A stretch of 64,000 nucleotides of DNA from Microcella alkaliphila. GTDB lineage: Bacteria > Actinomycetota > Actinomycetes > Actinomycetales > Microbacteriaceae. Positions 2,189-7,284 of this stretch are shown one piece after another; the first letter of the stretch is position 1, and the number at the start of each line of letters is the position of its first letter. The position numbers were made by a program, and so were the translations under genes. Location of the stretch: positions 1,736,001-1,800,000 of the forward strand of contig NZ_AP017315.1 in assembly GCF_002355395.1 (NCBI RefSeq), written 5' to 3'. Below the pieces are notes generated by a model that searched no databases, was not told where the DNA came from, and saw only the letters and a list, made by a program, of their open reading frames with translations.

Positions 2189-2941
2189 TCAGGTGCTCAC
2201 AGCGGCGAGTCGCTGCTGCACTTCGATACTGAGGAGCGTCGAAAAGATCATTTCCCCTGGTTCGAGCTCGAGGTGCAGAGGGCTCGTCGGTTCGGGTTGC
2301 CAGTCTGACGCGTCAACACCGGGGATGGCGTCGAGCACCGTGACCATGAATTCCGTCTCCATCGAGTTGACGAAGCTAATCGCCACGTACGCCTCGCCAT
2401 CAGGCAGAACGCGGATCCGTATACGAACATCCCGCTCGCCCAATCTCACGACGATGATGTCGCCCGACACGAGGGCTCGACTGACAGCCTGTTGCATTGC
2501 TGCGCGGGTCACCCTCACTGCGAGAGTTGCCGCCTCTGCCTCAAGCCGTCGCCAGTCCCACTCAGACGGCAACAGTTCAGCAGAGTCCTTCCCGTAAGTA
2601 TCGAGTTCGGCATAGAAGTCAGTGCGGCTGTCGGCGGTTCTGGTGCCGGCGGCACCGAGCCACCACGGGTGAGAGATCGTGAGCGCGTTCAGTTCGCCGG
2701 CTGTCAACTGAGTGCACGCACCGCGCTGACGCGCCCTCTTGACCTTGAACCACACACGATCCGACAAGGTACGGATGCGCTCGCCTCCGCCCGATTCGAC
2801 GTCGTGCGGAACAGACTGTGCCTTCGCGATGAGCGGGTCAGTCACCTCGTGCAAGAGGGTCGTCAAGACAGGAATCGGAACGCCGAGACGGTCAAGGACT
2901 CGCCGCGTTGGCCGTACGCCGTCACCAGCTGAGGAAGTCAT
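2189..2941 (-). CDS. Unrecognised protein paired with RHH gene (candidate toxin)
   Basis: This 250-residue protein belongs to no family I can name. Visible features are a conserved-looking aromatic stretch at about 90-110 (ISHPWWLGAAGTRTADSRTD), a helical Ala/Arg-rich segment at about 130-160, and a beta-rich C-terminal half ending LLSIEVQQRLAAVST. It has no signal peptide or membrane segment. It follows the ribbon-helix-helix gene by 9 bp. The hexamer TAGCCT, which includes that gene's stop codon, sits 6 nt before this ATG, so it may also have its own leaderless promoter. The antitoxin-first order, the neighbourhood of other toxin-antitoxin genes and the operator upstream suggest a toxin. 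That role is inference only. Confidence 0.6.
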   Translation of the reverse strand: MTSSAGDGVRPTRRVLDRLGVPIPVLTTLLHEVTDPLIAKAQSVPHDVESGGGERIRTLSDRVWFKVKRARQRGACTQLTAGELNALTISHPWWLGAAGTRTADSRTDFYAELDTYGKDSAELLPSEWDWRRLEAEAATLAVRVTRAAMQQAVSRALVSGDIIVVRLGERDVRIRIRVLPDGEAYVAISFVNSMETEFMVTVLDAIPGVDASDWQPEPTSPLHLELEPGEMIFSTLLSIEVQQRLAAVST

Positions 2942-2950
2942 GCGGGGAGG

Positions 2951-3217
2951 CTAGCGGCGACCTCCGTCGTCGAAGCCGCCAAGCTCGTCGAGCTCGTCAC
3001 GCGAGAAGCCCGTGATCTCACTGACGATCGATGGGAGCGTGCCGTCGAGACGCGCAAGCGAGGCCCGCACGGCCGCAGCGATTTCATCTCGGTGGTTCTC
3101 GACGTACTCGCGTACGGCAGCGTCGACCAGATCCTTCTTCGTGCGGCCGAAGTAGTGCGAAACCTCGCTGACGAGACGGTCGGTCTCTGGCGAAACCTTC
3201 AGCGGTGCAGTTGCCAT
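2951..3217 (-). CDS. Ribbon-helix-helix antitoxin-like protein
   Basis: The protein has 88 residues. Its first ~50 residues have the ribbon-helix-helix pattern: a short strand (PLKVSPETDRLVSEVSHYFG), then RTKKDLVDAAVREYVENH, typical of CopG/VapB-type antitoxins and small plasmid regulators. The Asp/Glu-rich tail (SRDELDELGGFDDGGRR) would be the partner-binding part in such families. A GGGGGA sequence precedes the ATG. An inverted repeat overlaps the likely -10 element upstream, which fits autorepression. It probably dimerises on that operator and neutralises the protein encoded just downstream. Confidence 0.7.
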   Translation of the reverse strand: MATAPLKVSPETDRLVSEVSHYFGRTKKDLVDAAVREYVENHRDEIAAAVRASLARLDGTLPSIVSEITGFSRDELDELGGFDDGGRR

Positions 3218-3324: not shown

Positions 3325-3978
3325 TCACGACACGGGCCTCCGCGCTACGGCCGCGGCCGCCACCGCCGCAGGGCTGGCCCCGCCGAGAACCCGCACTCCC
3401 TCGCGATGGGGCACGTGCATCCAGTCGCTCGCGAGGCGCCAGGGGGCGCCCTCGCCGCGCAGCACCGTGCAGGCGTAGCGGGCGCGGGTCATGCCGACGT
3501 AGAGCAGGTCGTTCCAGCTGAGGTTGTGCTCGTCGGCCCAGGCGGCCGCCTCGACGGTGACGTCGGTGACGACGACGGCCGGAGCATCCAGGCCCTTCGC
3601 CTTGAAGATCGAGCGCCAGGCGACCGGGCGCTCCCCTGTGAGCAGCTCGCGCAGGGCCCGCTCCTCCATGTTGGCGGGCTCGCGGGCGAGAAAGCGGCCC
3701 ACCAGCGACGACTGCGGGCCGAACGGGCTCAACACCACGATGTCCTCCGGGTCGTAACACTCGCCCAACCGCTTCAGGGCGCTCAGCAGGGCCGGCAGTT
3801 CACGGCCCGCGGCCACCTCGTCGACCTGCAGCGAGCTGGGAGTCGAAGTGGGCATCCGGTCGCTCGAATGATCCAGCGGGCGCGCCAGCGTGCGGCTGAT
3901 CGCCTGCAACAGCCGCGGAGCCACCCGACAGTTGCGGCGCACCCGCGCGTGCACGAGCGCCGGGTAAGCGGAGGACAC
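3325..3978 (-). pseudogene. 5'-truncated UvrD-type helicase remnant
   Basis: The 217 residues match only the C-terminal part of superfamily I helicase-like proteins. The pieces are RRNCRVAPRLLQAI (motif after the first RecA core), VLSPFGPQSS, FKAKGLDAPAVVVTDV (motif V region) and LYVGMTRARYACTVL (motif VI). The Walker A and B motifs and the whole first RecA domain are missing, so it cannot be an ATP-driven helicase. A GTG start (3978, or 3981) lies 6 nt after a TAGCGT -10 element. The upstream ~80 bp resembles the exonuclease promoter, so the remnant may have been joined to a copied promoter. It could still make a stable fragment, but loss of function is the simplest reading. Confidence 0.65.
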
Positions 3979-3981
3979 CAC

Positions 3982-4060
3982 TTGACGCTATCGAGGGCTA
4001 TTCACGAAAGCGAGGGCGGGCGGCGGAGTGGCGAGGGGCAGGTGACCCCTTTTTGGGGGG
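3982..4060 (-). promoter_or_regulatory. Promoter region copied from or shared with exonuclease
   Basis: On the minus strand CCTCGATAGCGTC (TAGCGT at 3985-3990) precedes the remnant's tandem GTGs, with a palindrome CCCCTTTTTGGGGG at 4046-4059. Order, spacing and much of the sequence match the block at 2082-2160. Between here and 4250 I see no gene. Confidence 0.45.
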
Positions 4061-4250
4061 TGACGCACGACGGGGATGCCCTGTCACTCGAAACCCCGGG
4101 CCCCGTGGCAGCTGCGACCTGCCCGAGAAAGAAGTGGGCGTCTGGCGAGCGGTTTTCCGCAGTCGTGCGTGATCCGACTTCATCGGTCGGGGGTGCCGCC
4201 TACCTTCGCGGCGAGGCAGTAGCAGACGCGAGGCCAGGCCGGTACCATTA

Positions 4251-4850
4251 ATGACACCACAACGGAAGATCGATCGACTGGTCGCGCACATGAAAGCCTC
4301 ACCGGCATCGGTGAGGTTCGGCGACCTGGAAGCGGTATGCACGCACCACTTCGGCACGCCCAGGCGGTCGAATGGAAGCCACGTCGTCTACACGATGCCG
4401 TGGGCCGGTGACCCTCGCGTGAACATTCAAAACGACAACGGTTCGGCAAAGCCTTACCCAGTGCGGCAAGTCATCAAGGCAATTGAACGCCTCGCCGCGC
4501 TACACGACTCCGAGGAGGGGCCGCTGATGAGTGACAACCACTACACCTACCGCGTCACCTGGTCGCCCGAAGACGGCGAGTACGTCGCGACCGTCGCCGA
4601 ATTCGGATCGCTCTCGTGGCTCGATACCGACCCGACCGCAGCCCTATCGAAGCTGCGGAGCCTCGTCGCGGACGTCGTCGCGGATCTACGGGCGAGTGGC
4701 GACCCGGTACCCGAACCGCTCGCCGACCGGCACTACAGCGGAGAGTTTCGCCTTCGCATCCCGCCAAGCCTCCACCGAGCACTCGCGATCGAAGCCGCCG
4801 AGCAAGGCATCAGCCTGAACCGGCTCGTCAGCGCAAAGGTCGCAGGCTAA
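4251..4850 (+). CDS. hicAB: HicA-HicB fusion toxin-antitoxin protein
   Basis: One 199-residue open frame carries both halves of a HicAB system. Residues 1-86 are HicA-like: a double-stranded RNA-binding-like fold with the catalytic His in NGSHVVY (His44) and a basic helix VRQVIKAIERLAAL. Residues 93-199 are HicB-like: a partial RNase H fold (YRVTWSPEDGEYVATVAEFG) followed by a ribbon-helix-helix end (FRLRIPPSLHRALAIEAAEQ, ISLNRLV). In known systems HicA is an mRNA interferase blocked by a separate HicB. Here no stop separates them. An internal ATG with a strong Shine-Dalgarno could also give free HicB (107 residues). Promoter: a TACCAT element lies close to the first ATG. The alternative is a sequencing loss of the hicA stop, but both halves are intact. 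Confidence 0.85.
   Translation: MTPQRKIDRLVAHMKASPASVRFGDLEAVCTHHFGTPRRSNGSHVVYTMPWAGDPRVNIQNDNGSAKPYPVRQVIKAIERLAALHDSEEGPLMSDNHYTYRVTWSPEDGEYVATVAEFGSLSWLDTDPTAALSKLRSLVADVVADLRASGDPVPEPLADRHYSGEFRLRIPPSLHRALAIEAAEQGISLNRLVSAKVAG
4513..4529 (+). promoter_or_regulatory. Internal ribosome binding site for free HicB
   Basis: GAGGAGGGG (4512-4520) followed by ATG at 4527 lies exactly at the HicA/HicB junction and in the same frame. It is one of the better Shine-Dalgarno sequences in the window. It would let ribosomes start at MSDNHYTY and make antitoxin without toxin. Confidence 0.6.
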
Positions 4851-4937
4851 GCGCGGCCGCCACTAGCGCCGGGCCGGGCGCGCCGTGAACGCGCACGCCC
4901 TTGCCACGGTGCGCGTGCACCCGGTCGCGGCAGAGTG

Positions 4938-4976
4938 GCGCCGTCTGCGTAACCCCAGTACGGGGGTGGTGGCGCC
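4938..4976. promoter_or_regulatory. Nested palindrome upstream of membrane gene
   Basis: CCCCAGTACGGGGG (4953-4966) is flanked on both sides by GGCGCC (4938-4943 and 4971-4976), giving a nested inverted repeat 65 bp before the GTG at 5041. With the adjoining TGGTGG it matches the palindrome before the exonuclease (2146-2165) at 18 of 20 positions. It may be an operator or an RNA hairpin; its role is unknown. Confidence 0.4.
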
Positions 4977-5040
4977 TCTCAGCCTGGCGCGTGTCGGCCG
5001 TGACCGGTAGACGGGACGCGTCCGAGGGTGAGGAGACGTC

Positions 5041-5907
5041 GTGAATCGAGAGCCACTGCGCCGCGAGCCGGGGCCGCGCGACTGGACGCCCGGCGGCGGC
5101 TACGTGTACGACAGCCCTGCCACGACCGGGGCGACCGGCGCCACGTCGGCGGGCGGGGTGGCGAGCCGCGGAGTGCGCGCGAAGCGCCCGCGCCGCACCC
5201 GCCCGCTCGTGTCGCGCGACCACGGGTTCGCCGCCCTCATCGTCGGCGTGGTCGCCATCGCCACCGCCGCCATCTCGTGGCCCGCCGGCGACGGCGGCTA
5301 CACCGCGCTGCTCTCCACCATCGGACTCATCGCCGTCGCCCTCGGCGTCAGCACCCTGCGCGCCTGGCGGGTCGGCCTCGCCCGGCACCGCGGCATGGCG
5401 CGCACCGGCATCGCCCTCGGCGGCGTCGCCCTCGCCTCCAGTGCGATCATCCTCGCCAACGGGTGGTTCGGGCTGACACTGCCCGCCCTGCCCGACGTGA
5501 CGCGCGCGGTCGTGGCGTCCGCGACGGGGGCGAGTACAGCATCCATCGATCAGGATGCGGTTGTCAGCGACGGTGCCGTCATCGGGGCGCCGAATGCGGC
5601 CGTCGTGGAGGTTCCGGTGTTTGCGGATGCCGACAGTGAGTTCACGCGGCTCAGCATGGAGCTCGGCACGCTCGTGTACGTCATCAACAACGTTGCGGCA
5701 GGAGGCGTGCCCGACGTGCTCTACGCCGTCGACAGCGGGCACGCACACGTGGCACCCGACGGGCGCGTGCTGGCTCCTGACAACGCGTGGGTCACCACCG
5801 GGTACGCGCGAGGCGCCGACGGCAGCTACGTCATCACCATGACCGGGGCGCAGCACGGCAGTGTCGCGTACTACCACTCGGGGGTTGGGGCGATCGAGCG
5901 GCGGTAG
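5041..5907 (+). CDS. Membrane-anchored hypothetical protein
   Basis: The protein has 288 residues. A basic, disordered N-terminus (about 1-58, ending AKRPRRTRPLVSRDHG) is followed by three hydrophobic segments at about 60-80, 85-105 and 120-145. After them comes an external domain of ~140 residues (VEVPVFADADSEFTRLSMEL onward) ending in Gly/Tyr-rich beta-type sequence. The layout resembles small actinobacterial DUF4190-like membrane proteins with an extracytoplasmic tail. No catalytic motif is visible. GTG at 5041 is preceded by GGAGACGTC, a reasonable ribosome binding site. Neighbours are toxin-antitoxin genes on both sides but nothing couples it to them. Confidence 0.6.
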   Translation: MNREPLRREPGPRDWTPGGGYVYDSPATTGATGATSAGGVASRGVRAKRPRRTRPLVSRDHGFAALIVGVVAIATAAISWPAGDGGYTALLSTIGLIAVALGVSTLRAWRVGLARHRGMARTGIALGGVALASSAIILANGWFGLTLPALPDVTRAVVASATGASTASIDQDAVVSDGAVIGAPNAAVVEVPVFADADSEFTRLSMELGTLVYVINNVAAGGVPDVLYAVDSGHAHVAPDGRVLAPDNAWVTTGYARGADGSYVITMTGAQHGSVAYYHSGVGAIERR

Positions 5908-5956: not shown

Positions 5957-6559
5957 ATGGAAACTGCGACGCGAACGGCCGCCCTGCAACTCGGCCTCAG
6001 CCAAAGGCAGGTTCAGAGAATGACCCGGGCCGGCCGCCTGGCACATCGTGACATCGCCGGGCGCACACTCGTGTCGAGCAGGTCAGTTCTGGCCGCCAGC
6101 CGATCGCGGGGCCGCGGGCGCCCATGGGAGGAAAACACCGTGCGTGCCGCTTGCGAACTGCTCGAGTGCGGCGAAACAACCGCAATGTCGGGAAGCCAAC
6201 GCAGTCGCCTACGCGCCCGCCTGCGCGAGCTCAGCGTGGACGCACTCGCCCACCAGGTGCTCGGCGCCAGAGTTTCACTCTGGCGTGCCACCGCGGCCAG
6301 CCCCCCCAGCATCGGCGATGGGGACGGGTCGCTCACCGCTACAGGGTCAAGTGTGCACGTCGCCGTGACTGCAAGCGCCGACGATCTTGCGCGGCAGTGG
6401 CGGCTGATCAACGACGCAACCGGCCAGACAGTGCTCGTAGAACTCGACACCACTGCCACAGCGGTCGTCACCGACATCGCGTTGTACGCGTACGGCGACG
6501 AACGTTCAAGCAGCGCTGCACGCGAACGTTTGCTGCGGCGGCAGAAGACGCTGATGTGA
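5957..6559 (+). CDS. HTH protein, antitoxin of nucleotidyltransferase pair
   Basis: The protein has 200 residues. The N-terminus (AALQLGLSQRQVQRMTRAGR, then a short wing) is an excisionase/MerR-like helix-turn-helix. A basic linker follows (SRSRGRGRPW), then a mostly alpha/beta C-terminal half without a known signature. It overlaps the next gene in an ATGTGA junction, so the two are translationally coupled. A small DNA-binding protein placed before an AbiEii-type nucleotidyltransferase is the usual layout of abortive-infection or type IV toxin-antitoxin modules, with this member as antitoxin and repressor. The family assignment of the C-terminal half is open. Confidence 0.65.
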   Translation: METATRTAALQLGLSQRQVQRMTRAGRLAHRDIAGRTLVSSRSVLAASRSRGRGRPWEENTVRAACELLECGETTAMSGSQRSRLRARLRELSVDALAHQVLGARVSLWRATAASPPSIGDGDGSLTATGSSVHVAVTASADDLARQWRLINDATGQTVLVELDTTATAVVTDIALYAYGDERSSSAARERLLRRQKTLM

Positions 6560-7284
6560 ACGAAGCCATCACGATCAGTGAACCTGTCGGTGGGTGGCGA
6601 AGCCCATGGCCACAAGTCTGGGAACTGGCCGACGCATTTCCCGCCACCCGGTGGGCTCTCATTGGCGGGCTCATGGTGCAAGCCCATGCGATGTCAGCAC
6701 AGGTCGAGGCGACACGAGTCACGGTCGACGTCGACGTTGCGGCACGAGTGGAGGCCGGGTCCTTCGATTATGCAGCGGCGGCCACCGCCCTGATCGGGCG
6801 GGGCTACTCCCTCGATGAATCAACTCGATACGCGTATCGATTTCGCCGCAATAGTGATGTCGTAGACCTGATGGTGGCAGATCACCAGAGGCCAGCTCCC
6901 CGATTCGGGCGCAAAGTAGTACTGCGGGTCGAAGGCGGTCAGCAGGCGCTCAGCAGAACGCAGGCGCTGCACTTCGCGACTGGTGACCGGACTGTTGCCG
7001 TTCCGCTGCCGACATTGCACGGCGCACTCGTGCTCAAAGCTGCCGCGCACATAGTCGACGCGCGAGATCGCGATCGCCACCTCCTTGACGCGATCACGCT
7101 TCTTGCCTGCGTAACCGACAGCGCAACGGTAAGTGCGCACCTCAAAGGTTCTGATCGCAGAAGAATCACGCATCTGTTGCGGTCGCTCGCGGAGCAGCCG
7201 CTCATCGAAGCGCAGGCGCCGACCGACACTGCCGAACTCGCCCGCCGCGCCGCCGATGACCTACGGCGTGACCTGCACGCCTGA
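6556..7284 (+). CDS. Nucleotidyltransferase-fold toxin, AbiEii-like
   Basis: The protein has 242 residues, with a GTG start inside the stop of the HTH gene. It shows the minimal nucleotidyltransferase pattern: WALIGGLMVQAHAM at about 29-42 (the GG..A..H core), then TRVTVDVDVAAR (paired Asp residues for metal binding) and, later, DVVDLMVAD, which could supply the third acidic residue. The C-terminal half is helical and Arg-rich. AbiEii enzymes transfer nucleotides to RNA targets to arrest growth; whether this relative does so cannot be read from sequence. The last codons overlap the start of the decayed sugar-kinase gene. Confidence 0.7.
   Translation: MNEAITISEPVGGWRSPWPQVWELADAFPATRWALIGGLMVQAHAMSAQVEATRVTVDVDVAARVEAGSFDYAAAATALIGRGYSLDESTRYAYRFRRNSDVVDLMVADHQRPAPRFGRKVVLRVEGGQQALSRTQALHFATGDRTVAVPLPTLHGALVLKAAAHIVDARDRDRHLLDAITLLACVTDSATVSAHLKGSDRRRITHLLRSLAEQPLIEAQAPTDTAELARRAADDLRRDLHA

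Follow-up and report, generated by a model that had tools for sequence, protein, structure and literature searches.

Within the 64,000-nucleotide stretch of the Microcella alkaliphila genome analyzed here (hereafter, the window), HicA and HicB are encoded in a single reading frame without a stop between them, giving a protein of 199 amino acids (4251-4850, plus strand); the original prediction of such a frame is borne out by the deposited sequence. This locus is likely to be an ordinary two-gene hicAB module, with a HicB of the ribbon-helix-helix (RHH) type, in which the overlapping genes came to share a reading frame in this strain; the module itself is probably tamed and evolutionarily transient. 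The explanation draws on the single frame, on two domains that appear intact by sequence, on the retention of the hicB start and of a Shine-Dalgarno-like site, and on the existence of unfused relatives. The features of the locus are collected in Table 1.

Table 1. Features of the fused hicAB locus, in coordinates of the window
Feature	Position	Strand	Basis
HicA-HicB fusion, single ORF, 199 aa	4251..4850	+	stop-free reading frame
HicA domain, residues 1-87, helix-helix-strands-helix	4251..4511	+	aligned relatives, AF2 block, structural matches
His44 codon	4380..4382	+	invariant across 19 aligned HicA sequences
GAGGAGGGG, Shine-Dalgarno-like site of hicB, doubling as linker-coding sequence (putative function)	4512..4520	+	purine-rich counterpart in three relatives
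Linker, residues 88-97	4512..4541	+	pLDDT <50 from residue 89
HicB, 107 aa, native start ATG 4527	4527..4850	+	comparison with unfused relatives
TGA where hicA of the relative AC4r ends; out of the hicA frame here	4532..4534	+	alignment
HicB C-terminal ribbon-helix-helix (RHH)	4743..4844	+	PF05534; strand-helix-helix in AF2 models
CGGTACCATTA, directly 5' of the hicA start (putative function)	4240..4250	+	11/11 bases invariant in four aligned Microcella copies

When the 199-aa protein was searched against its own 2.70-Mb, one-contig genome, the sole match was the protein itself. No domain was found in it beyond HicA and HicB with its RHH, and no PADLOC model matched it. The HicA part retains His44, which we take to be the catalytic histidine of HicA, along with 13 other positions that are invariant among the aligned HicA sequences. 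The HicB part is clearly homologous to free HicBs by sequence, and its C-terminal RHH is matched by PF05534 with an E-value of 1.3e-15.

Structure prediction of the fusion, which had been proposed as a check, yielded a confident HicA fold (pLDDT of 89-98 for residues 1-80, and 73 for residues 81-90) but left the HicB part and the arrangement of the domains without a clear solution, with pTM values of 0.49 and 0.48 in the two AF2 models, low confidence for the linker in both, and confidence below 50 over much of HicB. A joint MAFFT alignment in which the fusion was combined with 18 HicA and 19 HicB proteins came out misplaced, so that the AF2 input consisted of 17 HicA rows and only two (first model) or four (second model) HicB rows. 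A strand-helix-helix, the predicted RHH, was nevertheless modeled at residues 165-198. HicA chains were the best structural matches in Foldseek, and ranked first on a repeat look, yet these matches were weak (E 1.4-1.5, probability 0.69); searches of PDB sequences returned nothing relevant, whether the query was the fusion, HicA alone, or a HicA profile.

The conserved CGGTACCATTA upstream of hicA is a possible -10 or operator region, and a leaderless hicA transcript is possible as well. A consensus scan of positions 3900-5100 detected no sigma-70-type promoter. The hicA start codon adjoining this element (4240-4253) is ATG in the window and GTG in three relatives.

Comparison with other Microcella genomes indicates how the frames could have merged. 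The closest named match to the window hicAB is that of Microcella alkaliphila AC4r (L031). The layout of the junction is common to the window, AC4r, and two further Microcella copies: a purine-rich Shine-Dalgarno-like site is followed by the hicB ATG, located within the last codons of hicA. In AC4r and the two other copies, the hicA stop overlaps the hicB start; the window junction is, net, one base shorter than in these three aligned copies, which places hicA and hicB in register. The net one-base difference sits beside a run of G, and the junction differs from that of AC4r at several further bases. The hicAB genes of the window and AC4r are 87% identical at the DNA level, compared with about 95% over most of the aligned backbone (blocks of 83 to 96%, against G300, a genus relative taken as AC4r); thus, hicAB is more divergent than most of the backbone and has a history of its own, and AC4r may not represent the direct ancestral type of the window hicAB. 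Because the hicB ATG within the end of hicA is present in the unfused relatives too, what was noted as an internal start is where hicB natively begins. The proposed internal start for free antitoxin therefore stands insofar as initiation of HicB at its own ATG is plausible, whereas its status as a feature specific to the fusion does not.

Matches were detected, with the window's own genome counted, in 30 of 299 sampled genomes of the family, 8 of 26 of the genus, 45 of 396 of the order, and 36 of 396 of the phylum, many of these matches being partial. The junctions were compared across 144 loci, which, with identical pairs counted once, comprise 80 distinct adjacent hicA-hicB pairs; 42 HicB matches lacking a neighboring HicA, matches without a retrieved locus, and plasmid or phage hits other than two plasmid loci fall outside this count. 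Only one of the 80 pairs, that of the window, is an intact fusion. The two genes lie in the two other relative frames in 28 and 48 pairs, respectively, and share the frame but contain a stop in the remaining 3. Going upstream from the HicB match, the first in-frame start codon is reached at -1 relative to the hicA stop in 32 pairs, at -5 in 8, at -8 in 7, at -11 in 4, and at -14 in 3. Thus, in 54 of the 80 pairs the start codon of hicB either overlaps the stop of hicA or lies no more than 14 bases before it, and a small indel in this region could fuse the genes. Within the genus, all six other pairs, from five other genomes (two pairs in G235), are overlapping genes in different frames; G303 has a hicB with no hicA next to it, and in G306 there is just a fragment. 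The original prediction had named the occurrence of only separate HicA and HicB in close relatives as the observation that would count against it; with six different-frame pairs in the genus and a single intact fusion in the entire set, the idea of a conserved fusion family was rejected.

Three further candidates for a fusion were discarded. In G200 (L004), the genes share the frame but are separated by a stop, and in the plasmid of Rhodococcus sp. JS3073 (L085), the gene appeared to be in one piece at first look but contains a stop inside hicA. The locus in a Bryobacterales MAG (L043) is a decayed copy, located at 4646-5143 and matched over HicA residues 24-74; its hicA-like frame continues past the junction and enters a degenerate HicB (33.7% identity), within which it is stopped. 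The same locus also holds an intact HicB at 2341-2682. A scan of viral contigs produced one partial HicB locus, and among 30 records from a phage collection, one covered at least 80% of the query and was annotated as separate HicA and HicB genes.

HicA-HicB fusions as such are not new, and the window contains a further case of a known fused type. The original prediction had assumed that known hicAB systems encode two separate proteins; this is contradicted by published fused classes (PMC10865869) and, in the accessible part of a 2015 review by the EzeT authors, by a mention of HicA-HicB proteins of about 200 aa (PMC4826407). In the classification of Gerdes (2024), Class 11 comprises HicA-HicB fusions carrying an RHH or HTH at the C-terminus, and a CapRel-like, phage-related role has been raised as a possibility for this class (PMC10865869). 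The window fusion resembles Class 11 in being one gene with an N-terminal, dsRBD-like HicA, HicB in the middle, and a C-terminal RHH or HTH: the deposited sequence has one uninterrupted HicA and HicB frame and places the HicA domain at the N-terminus. In contrast to Class 11, with which it was compared by architecture and not by sequence, it stands alone beside unfused close relatives and keeps the native hicB start. Conservation of the fusion among relatives, a selection test that lies outside the published definition of Class 11, was seen in none of the other pairs (1 of 80, the window itself). The same domains in the same gene order make up the Class 4 hicAB operon with an RHH-type HicB (Gerdes 2024), which is the form found in the window's relatives; Class 4 loci encode two proteins from separate genes, as the relatives do, whereas the window has one frame. 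The roughly 200-aa proteins share the length and domain order of the fusion, a likeness drawn from their description, the accessible part of the source giving no sequences (PMC4826407). CapRel-SJ46 and EzeT, as described in the accessible parts of the sources, also combine toxin and antitoxin in one chain, with inhibition in cis (PMC10865869, PMC4826407), but they belong to other toxin families, and their function has been demonstrated, whereas the window fusion is known from its sequence. In known HicAB complexes, according to the accessible part of the same survey, HicB is packed against the sheet of HicA and recognizes palindromic operators (PMC10865869).

In our proposed mechanism, ribosomes would produce the 199-aa HicA-HicB protein from the first start, and some initiation at the old hicB start would yield free 107-aa HicB. 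The HicB part would cover the RNase face of HicA, either in the same chain or in the neighboring chain of an RHH-linked dimer, such that HicA is held off, and RHH dimers would repress the promoter. Antitoxin turnover as the route of toxin release would be hindered: since the toxin is tethered to its antitoxin and free HicB is probably also produced, loss of a labile antitoxin would no longer easily free HicA, which is why the module is probably tamed.

The main technical concern is that the genome actually has two overlapping genes and that a base is missing from the deposited sequence at the junction. The window being the sole intact fusion among the pairs compared, and the net difference amounting to one base beside a G run, speak for such a sequencing or assembly error. 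We addressed the frequency of frame errors by setting 244 kb of this genome, among them the window, against 220 kb from a single contig of G300; 182 kb were aligned. No second-frame match in this genome was obtained for any of the 110 G300 ORFs (117 kb) whose substitution patterns are coding-like, in a test blind to frame changes of less than about 16 residues. In-frame stops in this genome were found for 13 of these ORFs. In 5 of them the first stop comes no later than residue 30, and in 12 another ORF covers more than half of the sequence, so that the stops are likely to stem from ORFs that are over-long or spurious. One of the 13 has a 1-base difference, located ahead of the matching part. 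This ORF-wise test replaced an examination of 50 rows of indels whose length is not a multiple of three, located within or close to coding-like ORFs, the ORFs of five rows having been translated. In the reverse direction, 15 of 109 ORFs of this genome were flagged against G300, namely, one for a frame change within a gene, four for frame changes among the first 20-30 residues, and ten, as flagged by the test, for in-frame stops. Frame errors are thus not frequent in this assembly. With one genome, a mutation of the strain and a local error of assembly at the junction look alike; however, the results of the frame test, together with the several other bases at which the junction differs from AC4r, which mark this stretch as truly divergent, make an error unlikely. 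At a separate site in the comparison, an ORF of 1977 residues in the window genome is represented in G300 by two frames, owing to a 4-base repeat difference on G300 contig C5, near 69235 (L149).

Both halves of the fusion appear to be under constraint. The dN/dS between the window and AC4r is 0.31 for hicA and 0.23 for hicB, and with G275 as the outgroup, 4 residues of HicA and 1 of HicB changed only in the window, against 8 and 6, respectively, only in AC4r. Relaxed constraint is thus seen in neither half, which would fit a recent merger and a working fusion alike; evidence so far that selection maintains the fusion itself is scant. Taken together with the lack of signs of frequent frame errors, the constraint on both halves favors a recent strain-level merger over a sequencing error. 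Two considerations, among others, speak against our preferred explanation: a functional fusion would be as compatible with these figures as a very recent merger, and the fusion could be made and used by the cell. The fusion might also be an early step in the loss of a decaying module, with HicA activity perhaps already weak or dead. No other intact fusion was found, a truncated helicase lies in the neighborhood, residue 70, in a change specific to the window, is Pro where nearly all relatives have Gln, and the frame of the L043 copy, running through the junction into degenerate HicB and then a stop, would illustrate the next stage. Against this, neither His44 nor any of the 13 other invariant positions of HicA has been lost, and the window-specific changes are no more numerous than those specific to AC4r, so we regard decay as quite unlikely.

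We assign a very low probability to a selected one-chain toxin of the Class 11 type, in which the HicB part would sense a trigger, for example, a phage protein, and free the tethered HicA RNase in the manner of CapRel-SJ46. The domain order is that of Class 11, for which such a role has been proposed (PMC10865869), both halves are constrained, and other toxin-antitoxin-like genes are among the neighbors; yet no other intact fusion exists in the 80 pairs or among the six others of the genus, and the protein has neither a further domain nor a PADLOC model match. Lower still is the probability that the one-base merger gave rise to a self-inhibited one-chain HicA with spare antitoxin from the old start, now serving as a triggered defense protein, that is, the birth of Class 11 caught live. 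If the junction is confirmed, the recent merger that we prefer would offer a natural comparison between fused HicAB in one strain and two-gene copies in close relatives, and this comparison could address the effect of fusion on toxin release.

The neighborhood of hicAB contains repeated copies of the 3' end of a NERD/UvrD-type helicase gene around toxin-antitoxin genes, at 3325-3981 (minus strand) and 4852-4928 in the window, and at 2596-3006, 4238-4389, and 5754-7700 in L082. The remnant preceding hicAB in the window is a 200-residue C-terminal piece, 92% identical to the full AC4r protein, and a 77-base, 78% identical copy of the helicase tail directly follows hicB. A helicase match within a few kb, at 33-100% identity, was detected in all six other Microcella genomes searched, all of which have hicAB or hicB. 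A toxin-antitoxin-like pair is encoded at 2189-3217 (minus strand) of the window, where a 250-aa protein lacking Pfam matches is preceded by an RHH/VapB-like antitoxin (2954-3217) that scores below Pfam cut-offs; a 94% identical copy of this antitoxin gene directly follows hicB in AC4r. At 5957-7281 (plus strand), an HTH_17 protein is followed by a protein without a Pfam match, the AC4r relative of which has a weak, below-cut-off match to AbiEii nucleotidyltransferase. In AC4r, brxA, brxB, and a gene for a DUF6079 protein, presumably BrxC-like, adjoin hicAB (L082, 61-2560, minus strand), and the surroundings of hicAB in this genome look like a defense island.
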